From assembly GCF_020921035.1 (NCBI RefSeq), contig NC_063151.1, positions 22,326,934 to 22,390,933 on the forward strand: a stretch of DNA of 64,000 nucleotides, written 5' to 3'. The DNA is from Rhodamnia argentea. Its lineage: Eukaryota; Streptophyta; Magnoliopsida; Myrtales; Myrtaceae. A model generated the notes under the pieces. The model had not been told where the DNA came from, ran no database searches, and was given only the letters and a program-made list of their open reading frames with translations. This document shows, in pieces, positions 6,730 to 63,729 of the stretch. The position numbers and the translations under genes are program-made. Position 1 is the first letter of the stretch. Every line of letters starts with the position of its first letter.

Positions 6730-7492
6730 TGTTTTGGTTCCAACAAACAAGTCTTCTAGTATGCCGTGGGATTCTCGATTGAGAATCGCTTCAGATACTA
6801 CCCTTGTCCTTTCATACTTGCACTCCACAGCTTCCTTTTCCATAATCCATCATGACGTCAAGTCGACAAATATCCTACTGTATGAGAATTACATCGCTAA
6901 GGTTTCTGACTTTGGAGCATCAAGATTAGTCCCACTTGATCAAACTCAATACACCACTCTTGCACAGGGGACATTGGGATACTTTTGGACCCTGAATACA
7001 TGCACGCAACCCAACTGACAAGGAAAAAAGCGATGTTCGCAGCTTCGGGATCGTGCTAGTCGAGCTGATAACCAGGAAGGAGGCACTTTCTTTTGACCGA
7101 CCTGAAGAAGAGAGGAGCCTGGCAATCCATTTTCTTGCGGCATTGGCAAAAAAAAAAAACTACTTTTGGAAATTGTTGATGAACTAATTGCAATTGAAGA
7201 AAACAGCAAGCGAGGGAAGTTGCCAATGTTGCAAAGAGATACTTGACTATAAAAGGCGAGGAGAGGCCGACCACGAAGGAAGTCACGATTGAATTGGAGG
7301 AAATCAAAGCGAAATCTAACCATCTGTGGATGAGTAGTGTTGATTTGATTCGAGAAGAGGCGATTCATTTGCTAGGAGAGACACCCGATGCCACCATGTA
7401 CATGGACTGTACTTGGGACCGTGAACACCGGGCCCTAATAGCACGAAAAACCATGTCATGCCACCAGTTGGTGGTGGTAGATGCGAACAGTA
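6730..7492 (+). pseudogene. WAK kinase-domain fragment (C-lobe)
   Basis: Only the second half of a WAK kinase remains. It starts at the [13 protein letters not shown] helix and passes through a catalytic loop reading [11 protein letters not shown] (Arg of HRD replaced by His) and [12 protein letters not shown]. The frame breaks after GTLGYF (near 6990), again in an A-run near 7148-7160, and near 7200. The last part is open from about 7243 (GEERPTTKEVTIELEE) to a tail resembling the B-type genes. The usual TGA is lost (AGATGC), giving a stop at about 7490. The 3' flank to about 7560 resembles the B-gene 3' UTR. There is no N-lobe, membrane segment or ectodomain, so it cannot be active. Confidence 0.88.
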
Positions 7493-23702: not shown

Positions 23703-23710
23703 TATATAAA
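23703..23710 (+). promoter_or_regulatory. TATA box of WAK-B1
   Basis: TATATAAA followed by a C-run lies 79 bases upstream of the ATG at 23789, giving a predicted 5' UTR of about 50 bases. Confidence 0.65.
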
Positions 23711-23788: not shown

Positions 23789-26700
23789 ATGGTCATCCAC
23801 TGGCTTCTCTTGAAAGTTGTGGTGCTTGGGGCTGTATTGGGTCCATACCACAATCCTTTAATAGCAGAAGCTGCTGATTACCCAATCACGAAGCGCGGAT
23901 GCCAGAGCACTTGTGGAAACCTCTCGATTCCATACCCCTTCGGATCGAGGGATAGCGATCCCGGCTGCCGCCACGGTCCTTCCTCATTCACAGTCGATTG
24001 CGACAACTCTACCGGCCATCCGACGCCTTATCTCGATAACAGAGATAGTAACTTGCAAATACTCGACATCTCTCTCGAGCATCACGAGATGCGAGTAGCC
24101 GTGAACATCAGTCGAGACTGCTATAACTCTGCTGGGCACAACGAGAATTCATGGTCCTTTATCGATGTCACCCTTGGTGATTTCCCCATATCCAGCACCG
24201 AGAACAAGTTCTTTGCTGTCGGTTGCGATACGAAGGCGTACTTCTTGGACAGCAATGGGGATTTTGCCTTTGGATGTATGTCGGCATGCAATGAGATTGC
24301 CGAGGTGACTAATGGCCCGTGCTCGGGTATCGGTTGCTGCGAGACGAGCATACCTAGAAACTCATTCGGCTACAATATCTCCATTTTTAGCTTTAAAAAC
24401 CATACAGATGTCCTGAGTTTCAACAATTGCAGCTACGCTTTCGTCGCAGAGATCGGTTTCTACAACTTCAGTTCTGGTGATCTTTCGCGACTTGAACTCG
24501 ACCAGGCGCCCCTAGTTCTTGACTGGGCAGTAGGGGATAAAAATTGCTCCATCTCCAAGAAGAGCGGGGACTACATGTGCACTAATAACACCCGTTGTAC
24601 CGATGCTGAAAATGGATCGGGGTACAAGTGCGCTTGTTTAGAAGGTTTCCATGGCAATCCGTATCTCGAGAATGGTTGTCAAGGTATTTTTCCATTGACA
24701 TTTTTCACTTTGTCCTTACTATTTATATCATTTCAGTCCTTCTTGAGTCCCTCACTTAGGATATGTATGTGTGTGCCTTTTTTCTTTGTAGATATTGATG
24801 AATGTGCTGATCCAAATAAGAACCAGTGCGATGAAGTCAATGGACAGTGCACTAACGTTGTTGGGAATTATACTTGTTCATGCCGAAAGGGTTATCATGG
24901 TGATGGCTGGAAGGATAGGCAAGGATGCACTGCTAATGCATCACATTTGGTGCGGATACTTGTCGGTATGTTCTTTCGGTTTACTTCGGTGTCTGCCCCA
25001 AGCATTACTATTTTGAAGTAGCTGATTTTGACGATAGTCTAAAAATGTCTCTACAACAATAAAGATAACTCAAAACTCGAGAGAAGGATTTTGGCCAAAA
25101 AAAAAAAAGTTACTTGAAAACAGAAACTAACCCACAGAGAAAAAGGAGATGTGCAACATATAGAGAAAGAGGACGACGAAAGAATGGTGACTCAGACGAC
25201 CCCGCCGGCGGTTGCATGACCTCAAATCAAGAGAGAGAGAGTCTCTCGACAATGTTTTGTGAGTCACAAACGCTGTGGGGCGTTCTCTTGAGAGCAGTAA
25301 CCAAACCATCGCCTGGGGTTCGCAAGCGGCGACACGTGCAGCATTAATAGTGGCACAGCTCGGATCGAAAAGGGATAGGCTTTTCTTGTATACGGCTATT
25401 CAAACTCCATTGATAACAGGAAACTGGTTCACCGCCCTGAGATTTTTCAAATCTTACTTTGTCTCGCTAATAGCTTAGATCCCTTTTTAACCAGGAAGCT
25501 GTATGATGTTGTCTCTTCATGACGGATTCATGAAATTTAGATTCGTCGATGGTTTTGGTAAAATAACTGGTTATGTCATGCAGGTGCTGGCGTAAGCACA
25601 ATAGTGCTGCTACTATTCAGCGCAGGCTTTTTGTATCTGGGAATCCAAAAGAGGAAACTCATCAGGCTCAAAGAACAGTACTTCAAGCAAAACGGTGGCT
25701 TGCTCTTGCAGCAACAATTGCATGAACGGGACAGGACCACCAACACCATGAAAATCTTCACAGCCGAAGAGCTAGAGAAGGCCACGAACAATTACAACGA
25801 GAGCAGAATAGTCGGCCGAGGTGGATACGGTACCGTTTACAAAGGGTTGTTGCCAAATGACACGGTTGTCGCGATCAAGAAGTCCAAACTCGTGGACAAG
25901 ACCCAAATCGGGCGGTTCGTCAATGAAGTCATAGTGCTCTCTCGGATTAATCACCGTAACGTGGTCAAGCTTTTGGGATGTTGTTTGGAGACCGAAGTGC
26001 CTTTGTTAGTGTACGAGTTCGTGAGCAATGGAACTCTGTTCGACCACGTCCACAACCCCGACAAGTCCGCCAAGATGTCCTGGGATGCCCGATTGAGAAT
26101 TGCTTCGGATACTGCCGGTGTCCTTTCGTACTTGCACTCTGCGGCTTCTATTCCCATAATCCATTGCGACGTCAAGTCACCGAACATCCTACTGGACCAC
26201 AATTACACCGCGAAAGTTTCCGACTTCGGAGCTTCAAGATTAGTCCCACTTGATCAAGCCGAATTGTCCACTCTAGTTCAGGGGACGCGGGGATACTTGG
26301 ACCCCGAATGCTTGCACACAAATCAATTGACTGAAAAGAGCGATGTTTATAGCTTCGGGGTTGTGCTAGCGGAGCTGATAACTGGGAAGAGGGTGCTTTC
26401 TTTTGACCGACCCGAGAAAGAGCGGAGCCTAGCAATGCATTTTCTTTCAGCATTGAAAGACAATCGATTGTTCCAAATTGTTGACGGAGTGATTGCAAAT
26501 GAAGGGAACAACGAGCAAGTGAGGGAAGTTGCCAATGTCGCAAAGAGATGCTTGGCAGTGAAAGGCGAGGAGAGGCCGACCATGAAGGAAGTGGCGATTG
26601 AGCTAGAGGGACTCAAAGAGAAACCTAATCATCCATGGATGAGTAGTGTTGATTTGCATGAAGAAGAGGCGCTTCATCTGCTGGGAGAGAAGACCCACCC

Positions 26701-26794
26701 CACTGTGTACATGGATGGTATTGAGACCATGAACACTGGACCCTCGGATAGCATGAAAAACGTTGTCATGACACCGGTTAACAGTGGCAGATGA
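23789..26794 (+). CDS. WAK-B1: wall-associated receptor kinase-like protein with HCD catalytic loop
   Basis: The gene is intact, with exons 23789-24683, 24792-24965 and 25584-26794 predicting 759 aa. The ATG is the one used by all B copies (MVIHWLLLK), downstream of the TATA box. The protein has a signal peptide (about 1-28), a GUB_WAK region starting [15 protein letters not shown], an EGF repeat ending NGCQ, the DIDEC calcium-binding EGF (from about 299), a transmembrane helix (about 353-373) and a kinase (GRGGYG at about 434, VAIKKS, DFGAS). Both introns are phase 1. The catalytic loop reads HCDVKSPN (Cys at about 551, codon 26165-26167), where the sister genes have HRDVKS. The activation segment reads [10 protein letters not shown] in place of [10 protein letters not shown]. 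These changes make it a non-RD kinase or one losing function. Intron 1 is 108 bases and stop-free in frame. Confidence 0.9.
24684..24791 (+). other. Stop-free 108-base intron 1 of WAK-B1
   Basis: The intron has GT...AG ends, but its length is a multiple of three and no stop occurs in the exon frame. Retention would insert 36 residues, strongly hydrophobic ([13 protein letters not shown], then a CVPFFFV end), between the two EGF repeats. WAK-B3 has a TAG at the matching place (CAG to TAG), and the WAK-B2 intron is 110 bases. Confidence 0.7.
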
Positions 26795-31228: not shown

Positions 31229-32277
31229 TCGAATGAGTCACTTGTGATGGATCGAATTAGTCAATATATTGACCTAAAAAACCACACAAGTTACATCTAA
31301 TTCTACGGAAAGTTCGAATGTGTCGCCGCTTTTACATGGTGCAATGGTTTGTTGTGCAGTTAATCATGTGGTTAATTAATCTGAAAAGCCGGTGTTGTAT
31401 ACAGGTATTGCTGCTGGCATAATAGTGCTACTTTTCAGCCTAGCCTTTCTGTATTTGGGACACCAGAAAAGGAAGCTCATCAGGCTCAAAGAACAATACT
31501 TCAAGCAAAATGGCAGCTTGCTTTTGCAACAACGATTATATGAACGTGACAGAACCGCAAAAGCTGCGAAGATCTACAGCGCCGAAGAGCTAGAGAAGGC
31601 CACCGACAATTTTGACGAGAGCAGAAGAGTCGGGCAAGGAGGGTGCGGTACCGTTTACAAAGGGTCGTTGCCTAATGATACGGTAGTTGCGATTAAGAAG
31701 TCCAAGCTCGTGGAACAAAGCCAAATCGAACGGTTCATCAATGAAGTCATTGTGCTTTCTCAAGTTAACAATTGTAACGTGATCCAGCTTTTGGGATGTT
31801 ATTTGGAAACGAAGGTGCCTTTATTGGTGTATGAGTTCGTCGACAATGGAACTCTGTTCGACCACATCCTCAACCCCAACAAATCATCAAAGCTGTCCTG
31901 GGAGACCCGATCAAGGATCGCTTCGAAAATTGCCGGAGTCCTATCGTACTTGCACTCCACGGCTTCCACTCCCATTATCCATCAAGATGTCAAGTGGGCA
32001 AACATCCTTTTGGATGCTAACTACACCGCGAAAGTCTCCGACTTTGAAGCTTCAAGATTAGTCCCGCTTGATGAAACGCAATTATCCACTTTGGTCTAGG
32101 GAACATTGGGATACTTAGACCCTGAGTACTTCCTCACAAGCCAATTGACGGAAAAGAGTGATGTTTATAGCTTTGGGGTTGTGCTAGTCGAGTTATTGAC
32201 AGGGAAGAAGGTGCTTTATTTCGACCGACTGGAAGAAGAGCGGAGCTTGGCAACGTACTTCCTCTCATCACTTAAAA
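31229..32277 (+). pseudogene. WAK-C1: kinase-exon-only WAK pseudogene
   Basis: Homology to WAK-C2 starts inside intron 2 (31229 matches about 34610). The kinase exon begins at 31405 after an intact TATACAG acceptor and encodes the transmembrane segment ([14 protein letters not shown]) and kinase. No ectodomain exons exist upstream. Catalytic positions are degraded: GQGGCG in the P-loop, HQDVKWAN in the catalytic loop and DFEAS for DFG. A TAG at 32097-32099 replaces the Gln of VQGTLGY. After the stop the kinase continues readably to FLSSLK, then ends abruptly at 32274-32277, at the start of a perfect inverted repeat. Such a product would be catalytically dead even without the stop. Confidence 0.9.
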
Positions 32278-39711: not shown

Positions 39712-42700
39712 ATGGTCATCCACAGGCTTCTCTTGAAAGTTGTGGTGCTTGGGGTTGTATTGGGTCCATACCACAATCCCTTAGCAGCAGAAGCTGCTGC
39801 TGATGATCCAATCACGAAGCCCGGATGCCGCAGCACTTGCGGAAACCTCTCGATTCCATACCCCTTCGGATCGCGCGACAGTGATCCCAGCTGCCGTAAT
39901 GGCCCTTCCTCATTTGCCGTCGAGTGTGACAACTCTACGGACCCTCCAACGCCTTATTTTGATAACAAAGGTAGTAACTTGCAAATACTCAACATCTCTC
40001 TCGAGGATCACGAGATGCGAGTTCAAGCAGATTTCATCAGTCGAGCCTGCTATGACTCTGCTTGGTATGATGCTAATTCAAGTAACTTTCCCGTGCTCAC
40101 CCTTGCTGATTTCCCCATATCCAGCAACAAGAACAAGTTCATTGCTGTCGGTTGCGATACTTTCGCATACTTCTTGGACATCAAAGCGAAATTCGTCTTT
40201 GGATGTAAGTCGGCATGCAATGACATTTCCGAGGTGACTAATGGCTCGTGCTCGGGTATCGGTTGCTGCGAGACGAGCGTACCTAGAAACTCATTCGGCT
40301 ACAATATCTCCATTGCTAGCTTTAAAAACCATACAGATGTCCTGAGTTTCAACCCTTGCAGCTACGCTTTCGTCGCAGAGATCGGTTCCTACAGCTTCAG
40401 TTCTGGTGATCTTTCAGAACTTGAAATTGACGAGGTGCCCCTAGTTCTTGACTGGGCAATAGGGAATAGAACGTGCGACGTCGCCAAGAAGAGCGCGGAC
40501 TACATGTGCAAGGGAAACACCAGTTGTACCGACGCTGAAAATGGATCGGGGTACAAGTGCACTTGTTTAGAAGGTTTCCATGGCAATCCGTATCTCGAGA
40601 ATGGTTGTCAAGGTATTTTTCCATTGACATTTTTCACTTTGTCCTTTCTATTTATATCATTTCAGTTCTTCTTAAGTCCATCACTTAGGATATGTATGTG
40701 TGTGTTTTTTTTTTCTTTGTAGATATTGATGAATGTCTTGATCCAACTAAGAACCAGTGCGATGGAGTCAATGGAACTTGCATTAACGTTGTTGGGAATT
40801 ATACTTGTTCATGCCGAAAGGGTTATGATGGTGATGGCAGGAAGAATGGGCGAGGATGCACCGCTATTGCTAATGATAATCCATCACATTTGGCGCAGAT
40901 ACTTGTCGGTATGTTCTTTCGGTTTACTTCGATGTCTGCCTCAAGCAATACTATTTTGAAGTAGCTGATTTTAACGATAGTCTAAAAATGTCTCTAGTAC
41001 AATAAAGATAACTCAAAACTCGAGAGAAGGATTTTGGCAAAAAAAAAAAAAAAAAGTTACTTGAAAACAGAAACTAACCCATAGAGAAAAAGGCGCTGGG
41101 CTACATATAGAGAAAGAGGACGACGAGAGAATGGTGACTCAGATGACCATACCCCACGGTGGTTCCTGTTGCCTACGGAGTGCGACCCCGTCGGTGGTCG
41201 CATGACCTCAAATCAAGAGAGAGAGAATCCCTCGACGATGTTTTGTGAGTCACAAACGCTGTGGGGCGTTCTCATGAGAGCAGTAACCAAACCATCGCCT
41301 GGTGTTCGCAAGCGGCGACACGTGCAGCATTTATGGTGGCACAGCTCGGATTGAAGAGGGATAGGCTTTTCTTGTTTACGGCTATTCAAACTCCATTGAT
41401 AACAGGAAACTGGTTCACCGTCCTGAGATATTTCAAATCTTACTTTGTCTCGCTAATAGCTTAGATCCCTTTTTAACCCGGAAACTGCATGATGTTGTCT
41501 CTTCATGGCAGATTCATGAAATTTAGATTCGTCGATGGTTTTGGTAAAATAACTGGTTATGTCATGCGAGTCTTGGCGCGGGGATAGTAGTGTTGCTATT
41601 CAGCGCAGGCTTTCAGTATCTGGTAATTCAAAAAAGGAAACTCATCAGGCTCAAAGAACAGTACTTCAAGCAAAACGGTGGCTTGCTCTTGCAGCAACAA
41701 TTACACAAAGGTGACTGAACCACCAAGACCATGAAAATCTTCACAGCCAAAGAGTTAGAGAAGGCCACGAACAATTACAACGAGAGCGGAATAGTCGGCC
41801 GAGGTGGATACGGTACCGTTTACAAAGGTTTGTTGCCAAACGGCACGGTTGTCGCGATAAAAAAGTCCAAACTCGTGGACAAGACCCAAATCGAGCAGTT
41901 TGTCAATGAAGTCATAGTGCTTTCTCGGATTAATCACCGTAACGTGGTCAAGCTTTTGGGATGTTGTTTGGAGACCGAAGTGCCTTTGTTAGTGTACGAG
42001 TTCGTGAACAATGGAACTCTGTTCGACCACATCCACAACCGCAACAAGTCCACCAAGATGTCCTGGGATGCCCGATTGAGAATTGCTTCGGATACTGCCG
42101 GTGTACTTTCGTACTTGCACTCCATGGCTTCCATTCCCATAATCCATCGCGACGTCAAGTCGGCAAACATCCTACTGGACGACAATTATATCGCGAAAGT
42201 TTCTGACTTTGGAGCTTCGAGATTAGTCCCACTTGATCAAGCCGAATTGTCCACTCTAGTTCGGGGAACGTTGGGATACTTGGACCCCGAATACTTGCAT
42301 ACAAACCAACTAACCGAAAAGAGTGATGTTTACAGCTTCGGGGTTGTGCTAGCGGAGCCGATAACTGGGAAGAAGGCACTTTCTTTCAACGGACTCGAGA
42401 AAGAGAGGAACCTGGCAATGCATTTTCTTTCGGCATTAAAAAACAATGGATTGCTCCAAATTGTCGATGGAGTGATTGCAAATGAAGGGAACAACGAGCA
42501 AGTGAGGGAAGTTGCCAATGTTGCAAAGAGATGCTTGACAGTAAAAGGCGAGGATAGGCCGACCATGAAGGAAGTGGCGATTGAGCTGGAGGGACTCAAA
42601 GAGAAATCTAGTCATCCTTGGATGAGTAGCGTCGATTTGCACAGAGAAGAGGCGCTTCATCTGCTGGGAGAGACGACCGACCCCACTGTGTACATAGATG

Positions 42701-42777
42701 GTATTGAGACCATGAACACTGGGCCCTCGGAGAGCATGATAAACGATGTCATGACACCGGTTAACGGTGGCAGATGA
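39712..42777 (+). pseudogene. WAK-B2: wall-associated kinase-like locus split into ectodomain and kinase ORFs
   Basis: Exon 1 (39712-40612, 300 codons) and exon 2 (40723-40908) are open and encode a full GUB_WAK and two-EGF ectodomain with signal peptide. The exon 3 acceptor, CAG in the sisters, reads CGAG with the AG moved one base (41569-41570). Using it shifts the frame to an early stop. In the ancestral frame a TGA (41716-41718) lies in the juxtamembrane segment, after [11 protein letters not shown]. From the ATG at 41731 a 348-codon ORF covers the whole kinase with [20 protein letters not shown] and DFGAS, but it has [11 protein letters not shown], a Leu to Pro change in a core helix. 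As written, the locus could make a secreted ectodomain through intron read-through (stop at 40962-40964) and, if a promoter existed, a soluble kinase. I class it as a pseudogene, with domain separation as the alternative. Confidence 0.85.
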
Positions 42778-60686: not shown

Positions 60687-63600
60687 ATGGTCATCCATTG
60701 GCTTCTCTTGAAAGTTGTAGTGCTTGGGGCTGTATTGGGTCCATACCACAATCCCTTAGCAGCAGAAGCTGCTGCTGATGATCCAATCACGAAGCCCGGA
60801 TGCCGGAGCACTTGCGGAAACCTCTCGATTCCATACCCCTTCGGATCGCGCGACAGTGATCCCAGCTGCCGTAATGGCCCTTCCTCATTTGAGGTCGATT
60901 GCGATGACTCTACCGACCCTCCAACGCCTTATTGGTATGACAAAAGTAGTAACTTGCAAATACTCAACATCTCTCTCGAGGATCACGAGATGCGGATAAC
61001 CATGTTCATCGGTCAAGACTGCTATAACTCTGCTCCGTACGCTGCTAGATCAAGAACAATTCCCAGTCTGGTGTCTGGTCAATTCCCCATATCCAACACC
61101 AAGAACAAGTTCACCGGTGTCGGTTGCGATACGGCGGTGTACTTCTTGGACCGCCGTGGGGATTTCGCTTTTGGATGTATGTCTTTATGCAATGACATTG
61201 CCGAGGTGACTAATGGCTCGTGCTCAGGTATCGGTTGCTGCGAGACGAGCATACCTAGAAACTCATTCGGCTACAATATCTCCATTGCCAGCTTTAAAAA
61301 CCATACAGATGTCCTGCGTTTCAACAATTGCAGCTACGCTTTCGTCGCAGAGATCGGTTTCTACAACTTCAGTTCTGGTGATCTTTGGCGACTTGAACTC
61401 GACAAGGCCCCCCTAGTTCTTGACTGGGCAGTAGGGGATAAAAATTGCTCCATCGCCAAGAAGAGCGGGGACTACATGTGCACTAATAACACCCGTTGTA
61501 CCGATGCTGAAAATGGACGGGGGTACAAGTGCGCTTGTTTAAAAGGTTTCCATGGCAATCCGTATCTCGTGAATGGTTGTCAAGGTATTTTTCCATTGGC
61601 ACTTTTTACTTTGTCCTTACTATTTATATCATTTTAGTCCTTCTTGAGTCCATCACTTAGGATATGTTTGTGTGTGCCTTTTTTCTTTGTAGATATTGAT
61701 GAATGTGCTGATTCAAATAAGAACCAGTGCGATGAAGTCAATGGACAGTGCACTAACGTTGTTGGGAATTATACTTGTTCATGCCGAAAGGGTTATCATG
61801 GTGATGGCTGGAAGGATAGGCAAGGATGCACTGCTAATGCATCACATTTGGTGCGGATACTTGTCGGTATGTTCTTTCGGTTTACTTCGGTGTCTGCCTC
61901 AAGCATTACTATTTTGAAGTAGCTGATTTTGACGATAGTCTAAAAATGTCTCTACTACAATAAAGATAACTCAAAACTCGAGAGAAGGATTTTGGGCCAA
62001 AAAAAAAAAAATTTAACTTGAAAACAGAAACTAACCCATAGAGAAAAAGGAGATGTGCTACATATAGAGAAAGAGGACGACGAAAGAATGGTGACTCAGA
62101 CGACCATACCCCACGGTGGTTCCTGTTGCCTAGGGAGTGCGACCCCACCGGCGGTCGCATGACATCAAGTCAAGAGAGAGAGAGTCTCTCGATGATGTTT
62201 TGTGAGTCACAAACGCCGTGGGGCGTTCTCTTGAGAGCAGTAACAATCGCCTGGGGTTCGCAAGCGGCGACACGCGCAGCATTTATGGTGGCACAGCTCG
62301 GATCGAAAAGGGATAGGCTTTTCTTGTATGCGGCTATTCAAACTCCATTGATAACAGGAAACTGGTTCACCGCCCCGAGATTTTTCAAATCTTACTTTGT
62401 CTCGCTAATAGCTTAGATCCCTTTTTAACCAGGAAGCTGTATGATGTAGTCTCTTCATGGCGGATTCATGAAATTTAGATTCATCGATGGTTTTGGTAAA
62501 ATAACTGGTTATGTCATGCAGGTGTTGGCGCGGGGATAGCAGTCTTGCTATTCAGCGCAGGCTTTCTGTATCTGGGAATCCAAAAGATGAAACTCATCAG
62601 GCTCAAAGAACACTACTTCAAGCAAAATGGTGGCTTGCTCTTGCAGCAACAATTGCATGAACGGGACAGAACCACCAACACCACGAAAATCTTCTCAGCC
62701 GAAGAGCTAGAGAAGGCCACGAACAATTACGACGTGAGCAGAATAGTCGGCCGAGGTGGATATGGTACCGTTTACAAAGGGTTATTGCCAAATGACACGG
62801 TTGTCGCGATCAAGAAGTCCAAACTCGTGGACAAGACACAAATCGAGCAGTTCGTTAATGAAGTTATAGTGCTTTCTCAGATTAATCATCGTAACGTGGT
62901 CAAGCTTTTGGGATGTTGTTTGGAGACCGAAGTGCCCTTGTTAGTGTATGAGTTCGTGAACAACGGAACGCTGTTCGACCACATCCACAACCGCAACAAG
63001 TCCTTCAAGATGTCCTGGGACACCCGATTGAGAATTGCTTCGGATACTGCCGGTGTCCTTTCATACTTGCACTCCGCTGCTTCCATTCCCATAATCCATC
63101 GCGACGTCAAGTCGACAAACATCCTACTGGACGACAACTACACCGCGAAAGTTTCCGACTTCGGAGCTTCGAGATTAGTCCCACTTGATCAAGCCGAATT
63201 GTCCACTCTAGTTCAGGGGACATTGGGATACTTGGACCCTGAATACTTGCAAACAAACCAACTGACCGAAAAGAGCGATGTTTACAGCTTTGGGGTTGTG
63301 CTAGTGGAGCTGATAACCGGGAAGAAGGCGCTTTCTTTTGACCGGCCTGAGAAAGAGCGGAACCTCGCAATGCATTTTCTTTCGGCATTGAAAAACAATC
63401 GATTGTTCCAAATTGTCGACGGAGTGATTGCAAATGAAGGGAACGACGAGCAAGTGAGGGAAATTGCGAATGTTGCAAAGAGATGCTTGATGGTAAAAGG
63501 CGAGGAGAGGCCGACCATGAGGGAAGTGGCGATTGAGCTGGAGGGATTCAAAGAGAAATCTAGTCATCCATGGATGAGTAACGTTGATTTGCATGGAGAA

Positions 63601-63729
63601 GAGGCGCTTCATTTGCTCGGAGAGAAGACCCACCCCACTGTGTACATGGATGGTATTGAGACCATGAACACTGGGGCCTCGGATAGCATGAAGAACCTTG
63701 TCATGACACCAGTTAACAGTGGCAGATGA
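60687..63729 (+). CDS. WAK-B3: intact wall-associated receptor kinase-like protein
   Basis: This is the best-preserved gene in the window. Exons 60687-61584, 61693-61866 and 62522-63729 join in phase 1 to give 759 aa. The protein has a signal peptide (1 to about 28, ending near AEAAA), a GUB_WAK region (about 39-105, [15 protein letters not shown]), a second cysteine-rich region to about 250 ([10 protein letters not shown]), an EGF-like repeat (about 254-298), a calcium-binding EGF (DIDEC, from 300), a transmembrane helix (about 355-375) and a Ser/Thr kinase. Kinase landmarks are GRGGYG at 434, Lys 455, the HRD Asp at 552, the DFG Asp at 570 and [10 protein letters not shown]. All catalytic residues are present. 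The ATG is chosen because it follows the TATA box and starts the signal peptide in every B copy. It probably senses pectin fragments at the plasma membrane, by family knowledge. Confidence 0.95.

Follow-up and report, generated by a model that had tools for sequence, protein, structure and literature searches.

An open WAK gene with an HCD catalytic loop in a tandem kinase cluster of Rhodamnia argentea, and a probable CpG route to arginine loss

WAK-B1 of Rhodamnia argentea carries cysteine in place of the arginine of the HRD catalytic loop, and the question raised by this locus is whether the change marks a switch in the working of the receptor, the first damage to a dying gene, or an ordinary mutation. 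FLS2 and Xa21 are non-RD immune receptor kinases with HCD. The window, which is the whole stretch of 64,000 nucleotides analysed, corresponds to C2:22326934-22390933 in a genome of 346.7 Mb (74 contigs); feature positions are window coordinates on the + strand unless prefixed with C2.

B1 was modelled with three exons. Exon 1 (23789..24683) encodes the N-terminal region and a galacturonan-binding GUB_WAK_bind domain (Pfam PF13947, E 2.8e-14) in an open frame with a GT donor, and exon 2 (24792..24965) encodes a calcium-binding EGF domain (PF07645, E 4.5e-9) between AG and GT borders. Exon 3 (25584..26794) begins at an AG acceptor and contains a transmembrane-like segment, the kinase domain (PF00069, E 1.5e-47), the C-terminal tail and the TGA stop. 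The model comprises 759 codons with GT/AG at all borders and a single terminal TGA ending at 26794, which agrees with the preliminary description of B1 as open throughout; a disabled frame or splice site, as would mark a pseudogene, was not found in it. The extracellular GUB_WAK_bind and EGF domains and the kinase detected by Pfam give B1 a WAK architecture, in which the transmembrane-like segment is a hydrophobic stretch of the translation preceding the Ser/Thr-type kinase. The translation keeps GRGGYG, VAIKK, NEV, HxD, KSPN, DFG and DPE, which we take to be the glycine loop, VAIK lysine, helix-C glutamate, HxD aspartate, KxxN, DFG and DPE motifs, respectively. With the remaining catalytic residues present, B1 is by motif predicted to be a kinase rather than a pseudokinase.

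The catalytic loop of B1 (26162..26170) reads CAT TGC GAC. As had been reported, HCD arises through a single CGC to TGC change at 26165-26167, where both B2 and B3 carry CGC, and B1 is non-RD by definition, the residue before the catalytic aspartate being Cys and not Arg. The two further unusual residues described in the activation segment (26282..26311) were also confirmed: GTR, with CGG at 26288-26290 compared to TTG in the nearest relatives, a difference of two bases, and PEC, with TGC at 26309-26311 compared to TAC in relatives. Both are unique to B1 among 18 aligned cluster copies. The three changes span 49 codons, a spacing that suggests somewhat more clustering than plain drift would predict.

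To place B1 among its relatives, cluster copies were located by tblastn with the B1 kinase as query (E up to 1e-5) in the window and neighbouring stretches. The cluster was read out between C2:22203405 and 22484540, with coverage extending to 22484900 except for 22476001-22481099. The results showed that B1 belongs to a tandem array with birth-and-death turnover and 23 or more kinase copies; the HRD site was covered in 23 of them, with 19 HRD, 2 HCD, 1 HQD and 1 HHD. All three exons were open in seven B-type copies, namely B1 and K295 (HCD) and B3, K275, K307, K422 and K474 (HRD). The projected exon 3 of K307, K422 and K474 ends before the last codon; in the alignment a closing TGA is seen for K307 and K422, and for K474 an open frame of 410 codons. 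The EGF exon of K275 is shortened (150 bases compared to 171-186). B3 (60687..63729) is an intact HRD comparator, and the exon-3 nucleotide identity of B1 was 91.9% to B3 and 93.1% to K275. B2 (39712..42777), which had been used as a normal comparator, carries CGC (RD) at the site and is broken: GA occupies the aligned position of the exon-3 acceptor AG, the next AG is shifted by one base, and the reading frame is interrupted by TGA at 41716-41718. A TATA-like box (TATATAA, 23703..23709), of putative function, lies upstream of the B1 start. It was considered as a sign of a living gene and dropped; B2 has TATATGA there, but the box is also altered in the open copies K307 and K422.

HCD is not confined to B1. 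K295, a second open HCD copy (TGT; exon 3 at C2:22295939-22297135, within C2:22290001-22300000, labelled L019), lies about 57 kb upstream of B1 in the same cluster, and it also shows SFG to SFR and further changes at conserved places. In all, the arginine was lost in three copies besides B1, two of them decayed: a kinase copy with HQD (CAA; 31419..32276) and an in-frame stop, and a kinase fragment with HHD (CAT; 6746..7407), a frameshift and stops. Across the 18 aligned copies the site was CGN in 13 and AGA in 1; B1 has TGC, K295 has TGT, and the two decayed copies have CAA and CAT. A single CpG transition in CGC, CGT or CGA would account for each of the four losses. Eight copies (the seven open ones and B2) were compared over exon 3, where CpG had changed to TG at 53/426 consensus CpGs compared to C to T at 79/1661 other cytosines, and in B1 exon 3 the corresponding counts were 8/51 and 8/209. 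At this rate the chance that two of eight copies carry TG at a given CpG was about 0.26, with the copies treated as independent though they are related, and the observed pair of HCD changes is accordingly no rarer than expected. Eight exon-3 columns are mostly CGN; of these, the well-kept HRNVV and WDxRLRI columns each show one loss, confined to decayed copies, while five looser columns had more losses, open copies included. From these small numbers of related copies, the HRD arginine in open copies would appear to have been hit at about the ordinary CpG rate, and the CpG route explains its recurrent loss.

The two open HCD copies also differ in ways that bear on their origin. CGC in B2, B3, K227 and K275 and CGT in K307, K422 and K474 match the third bases of the B1 TGC and the K295 TGT, respectively. 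Separate HCD events in B1 and K295 are suggested by the third base of the codon, the bases around it and the length of intron 2. A single origin was not favoured, since the codons differ and intron 2 is long in B1 and 237 bases in K295; the AU test (P = 0.365) nevertheless did not reject a tree in which B1 and K295 were forced together. Most inner nodes joining B copies were weakly supported in the exon-3 tree (37-72), which leaves room for exchange between copies. Gene conversion from a distant donor was considered as a possible source of GTR; in a comparison limited to ten cluster copies, the nearest relative of B1 shifts along exon 3. Intron 2 measured 618-661 bases in B1, B2, B3 and K227 and 236-237 in the other five of nine B-type copies; intron 1 measured 393-421 bases in K307, K422 and K474 and 106-110 in the remaining B-type copies. 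Exon-3 similarity fits the intron-length grouping poorly, and copies may have exchanged sequence.

Selection was assessed with a purpose-written codon model, unchecked against a published programme, on a tree with weak nodes. The exon-3 (kinase-side) dN/dS of 11 copies was 0.323 for the family, and the B1 value of 0.314 was similar to it and significantly below 1 (P = 0.0002). K295 (0.547) was above the family value (P = 0.024), and the open HRD copy K275 had the highest value of all (0.595; P = 0.069 against the family). The broken copies B2 (0.42) and K227 (0.33) also showed low values, so the low value of B1 is no proof of present function, and dN/dS was rejected as evidence that B1 is alive. 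For the ectodomain of eight copies, dN/dS was 0.937 overall and 1.15 in B1, and it was clearly below 1 only in K422 (0.36). Rapid change of the ectodomain next to a conserved kinase thus characterizes the whole family and is no special sign of decay in B1; the ectodomain values near 1 fit diversifying or loosely constrained receptors. A dN/dS near 1 across the whole gene, named in the preliminary description, together with a lack of expression, as a refuting pattern, was thus seen only in part: the B1 kinase stands at 0.31, and the ectodomain at 1.15, but the family ectodomain is near 1 too (0.94).

No positive selection was detected by the branch-site test on the B1 kinase branch (P = 0.25; two starts, up to 80 iterations), and an earlier run stopped at 25 iterations was likewise not significant (P = 0.72). 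The highest site posterior was at codon 26288 (0.66), followed by codon 25595 (0.58). We further compared the copies at 95 columns that do not vary among 15 other WAK kinases (two A-type kinases of the cluster and 13 from C7, C10 and C1). B1 departed at 7 of the 95, five of which are common to the whole B-type clade; the remaining pair comprises R to C at 26165, shared with K295, and Y to C at 26309, found in B1 only. Beyond the five clade-wide departures, K295 had 4, K474 had 3, B2, K227, K275, K307 and K422 had 1 each, and B3 had 0. The GTR column varies among WAKs. Private exon-3 codons numbered 11 synonymous and 11 nonsynonymous in B1, compared to 15 and 29 in K295.

Elsewhere in the genome, 18 of the 19 WAK-like kinases read were HRD and one was HRY, so that the arginine was lost in 0/19. 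This set comprises 13 of 26 aligned kinase loci, called WAK-like above 300 bits (a cut chosen after seeing the list) and all HRD, plus six stretches from a longer list of WAK-like matches (five HRD, one HRY). The HRY kinase (L073, C3:10080299-10081027) has its catalytic Asp replaced and an open frame over the stretch read. Just under the cut were L036 (224 bits, HRD) and L037 (227 bits, HGN). L037 (C2:10046887-10047702) is 47% identical to B1, has both Arg and Asp replaced in an open frame, and presumably resembles the ZED1-related pseudokinases; five further matches lie near it at C2:10.05-10.22 Mb. In a wider sample outside the cluster (46 kinase loci of 143 genome matches, 45 of which gave a catalytic loop), 34 loops were HRD, 4 HCD and 7 other. 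GTR was present in 4/4 HCD, 0/34 HRD and 0/7 other kinases (one of the last without a readable activation segment), and PEC in 6/34 HRD kinases. The four HCD kinases, which all read GTRGY and which we take to be S-domain lectin kinases, are three neighbours on C4 (L002, L054, L071) and one on C2 (L070), and they thus represent at most two places. These results indicate that HCD with GTR, and PEC, both have precedents in the same genome.

How these findings bear on the possible readings of B1 can now be considered. The main rival to a tolerated non-RD WAK, which we consider rather unlikely, is an early pseudogene in which constraint was recently lost and HCD, GTR and PEC are the first damage in a frame still open. 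Two of the four arginine losses lie in decayed copies; the open HCD copy K295 combines a raised dN/dS (0.55, P = 0.024) with further changes at conserved positions, among them SFG to SFR; both departures of B1 that are not clade-wide fall in the catalytic and activation segments; and the dead copies B2 and K227 show that a low dN/dS can outlast function. However, the borders and frame of B1 are intact over 759 codons, its private codons are evenly divided whereas those of K295 are mostly nonsynonymous, and its kinase dN/dS matches that of the family. Nor does a raised dN/dS prove decay, as the highest value belongs to the open HRD copy K275. It is still less probable that an error of assembly or base calling at one position produced the TGC, and we regard this as very improbable: the single-base state of B1 does rest on one assembly, but K295 in the same cluster is HCD as well, with TGT as its codon, and the other private changes of B1 resemble ordinary divergence.

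An adaptive switch from RD to non-RD appears improbable to us. It would hold that loss of the HRD arginine and gain of the GTRGY arginine recreate the HCD/GTR constellation of the lectin-type kinases, freed from activation-loop control as has been proposed for non-RD immune receptors. The joint occurrence of HCD and GTR in all four HCD kinases outside the cluster and the absence of GTR from 34 HRD kinases agree with it, as do the two base changes taken by the L to R codon, which has the highest branch-site posterior, and the HCD state of 2/7 open B-type copies. Against it, the branch-site test was not significant, the four lectin-type kinases count for at most two places, K295 kept GTL although it is the other open HCD copy, and the CpG route accounts for the recurrence. 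Equally doubtful is the broader proposal that RD kinases of this cluster repeatedly turn non-RD and that B1 is a living intermediate, with HCD and a compensating GTRGY arginine, converging on the lectin-type HCD/GTR state. Of the earlier suggestion that B1 is either switching its mode of activation or an early pseudogene, the open frame, the non-RD state and the mostly RD relatives stand, while a singular event pointing to a switch is not supported, given the recurrence, the CpG transition and the lack of positive selection; the observation is real and correct at the base level, and it is over-interpreted as a switch.

We lean towards the reading that B1 is an intact non-RD WAK which arose by CpG decay and is either tolerated or drifting. 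Ordinary mutation in a fast-turning cluster explains HCD better than a demonstrated switch in receptor working. The anatomy, the codon states, the recurrence and the lack of detectable positive selection are direct observations on B1; its residual activity, neutrality and partner signalling we infer. The kinase would have become non-RD when the CpG of the HRD arginine codon underwent a C to T transition, and the HRD arginine would then probably no longer couple activity to a phosphorylated activation loop. Judged from the remaining motifs, B1 is probably a weak kinase with low residual activity. HCD most likely persisted as a change tolerated in a redundant tandem gene and not as a selected one. 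By analogy with EFR, B1 may signal mainly through partners; EFR is an HCD receptor kinase (Cys848) described as signalling without its own catalysis, through allosteric activation of BAK1 (PMC8463890, PMC11259431). EFR, though HCD, is also described as requiring activation-loop phosphorylation (PMC8463890), and an HCD kinase may thus still depend on its activation loop.

If B1 is expressed, the RD and non-RD receptors of this cluster, which differ little elsewhere, offer near-matched natural pairs for testing the HRD arginine. If it is not, B1 illustrates how readily tandem kinase genes can lose the RD state at an early stage through the CpG of the HRD codon, and HCD in a single copy should not be taken as an immune-receptor signature. 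What most deserves to be followed is the recurrence of arginine loss within one cluster.

Non-RD WAKs are already on record, in the passages of the literature consulted here, from maize, wheat, rice, tomato and plane, and B1 adds a non-RD member to a known family. OsWAK1 is non-RD, and all known Arabidopsis WAKs are stated to be RD (PMC4715279); TaWAK6 and ZmWAK-RLK1 (Htn1) are non-RD (PMC6957155), as are ZmWAKL, in a tree that separates RD and non-RD WAKs clearly (PMC10864183), BdWAK2 (PMC7698158) and TaWAK7D (PMC8199179). Among resistance WAKs, those of maize and wheat include non-RD kinases (PMC6957155, PMC10864183, PMC8199179). The non-RD state was given for 1/28 plane-tree WAK-like kinases (PMC4295470) and for 5/29 tomato WAK/WAKL (SlWAKL) kinases, on one chromosome (PMC7650724). 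The view that WAKs are normally RD is thus upheld by the Arabidopsis account (PMC4715279) and most relatives here, but not by tomato (5/29), maize and wheat as described. The passages of open-licence literature consulted here report no recent single-copy RD to non-RD change in a dicot WAK cluster, and in PMC10702004 and PMC7109087 the term non-RD occurs in the reference lists only.

Compared to the RD-type WAKs of Arabidopsis, B1 has the same GUB_WAK_bind, EGF-Ca, transmembrane-like and kinase segments, in a three-exon gene of a tandem cluster; unlike those WAKs as published, it reads GTR and PEC and is without the HRD arginine. It shares with the published non-RD WAKs a WAK-family kinase without the HRD arginine. 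In their accounts, however, the non-RD WAKs of maize, rice, wheat and tomato form clades or lie on one chromosome, whereas B1 is a terminal change in a mostly RD tandem clade; from what its account gives, the single plane-tree non-RD kinase (1/28) may be closer to the case of B1. With EFR, as portrayed in its sources, and with FLS2 and Xa21, B1 has in common the cysteine in place of the HRD arginine. Kinases of the EFR type are characterized in the EFR sources by an LRR ectodomain, a subfamily-XII kinase and a broadly conserved non-RD state, and B1 lies outside that family.
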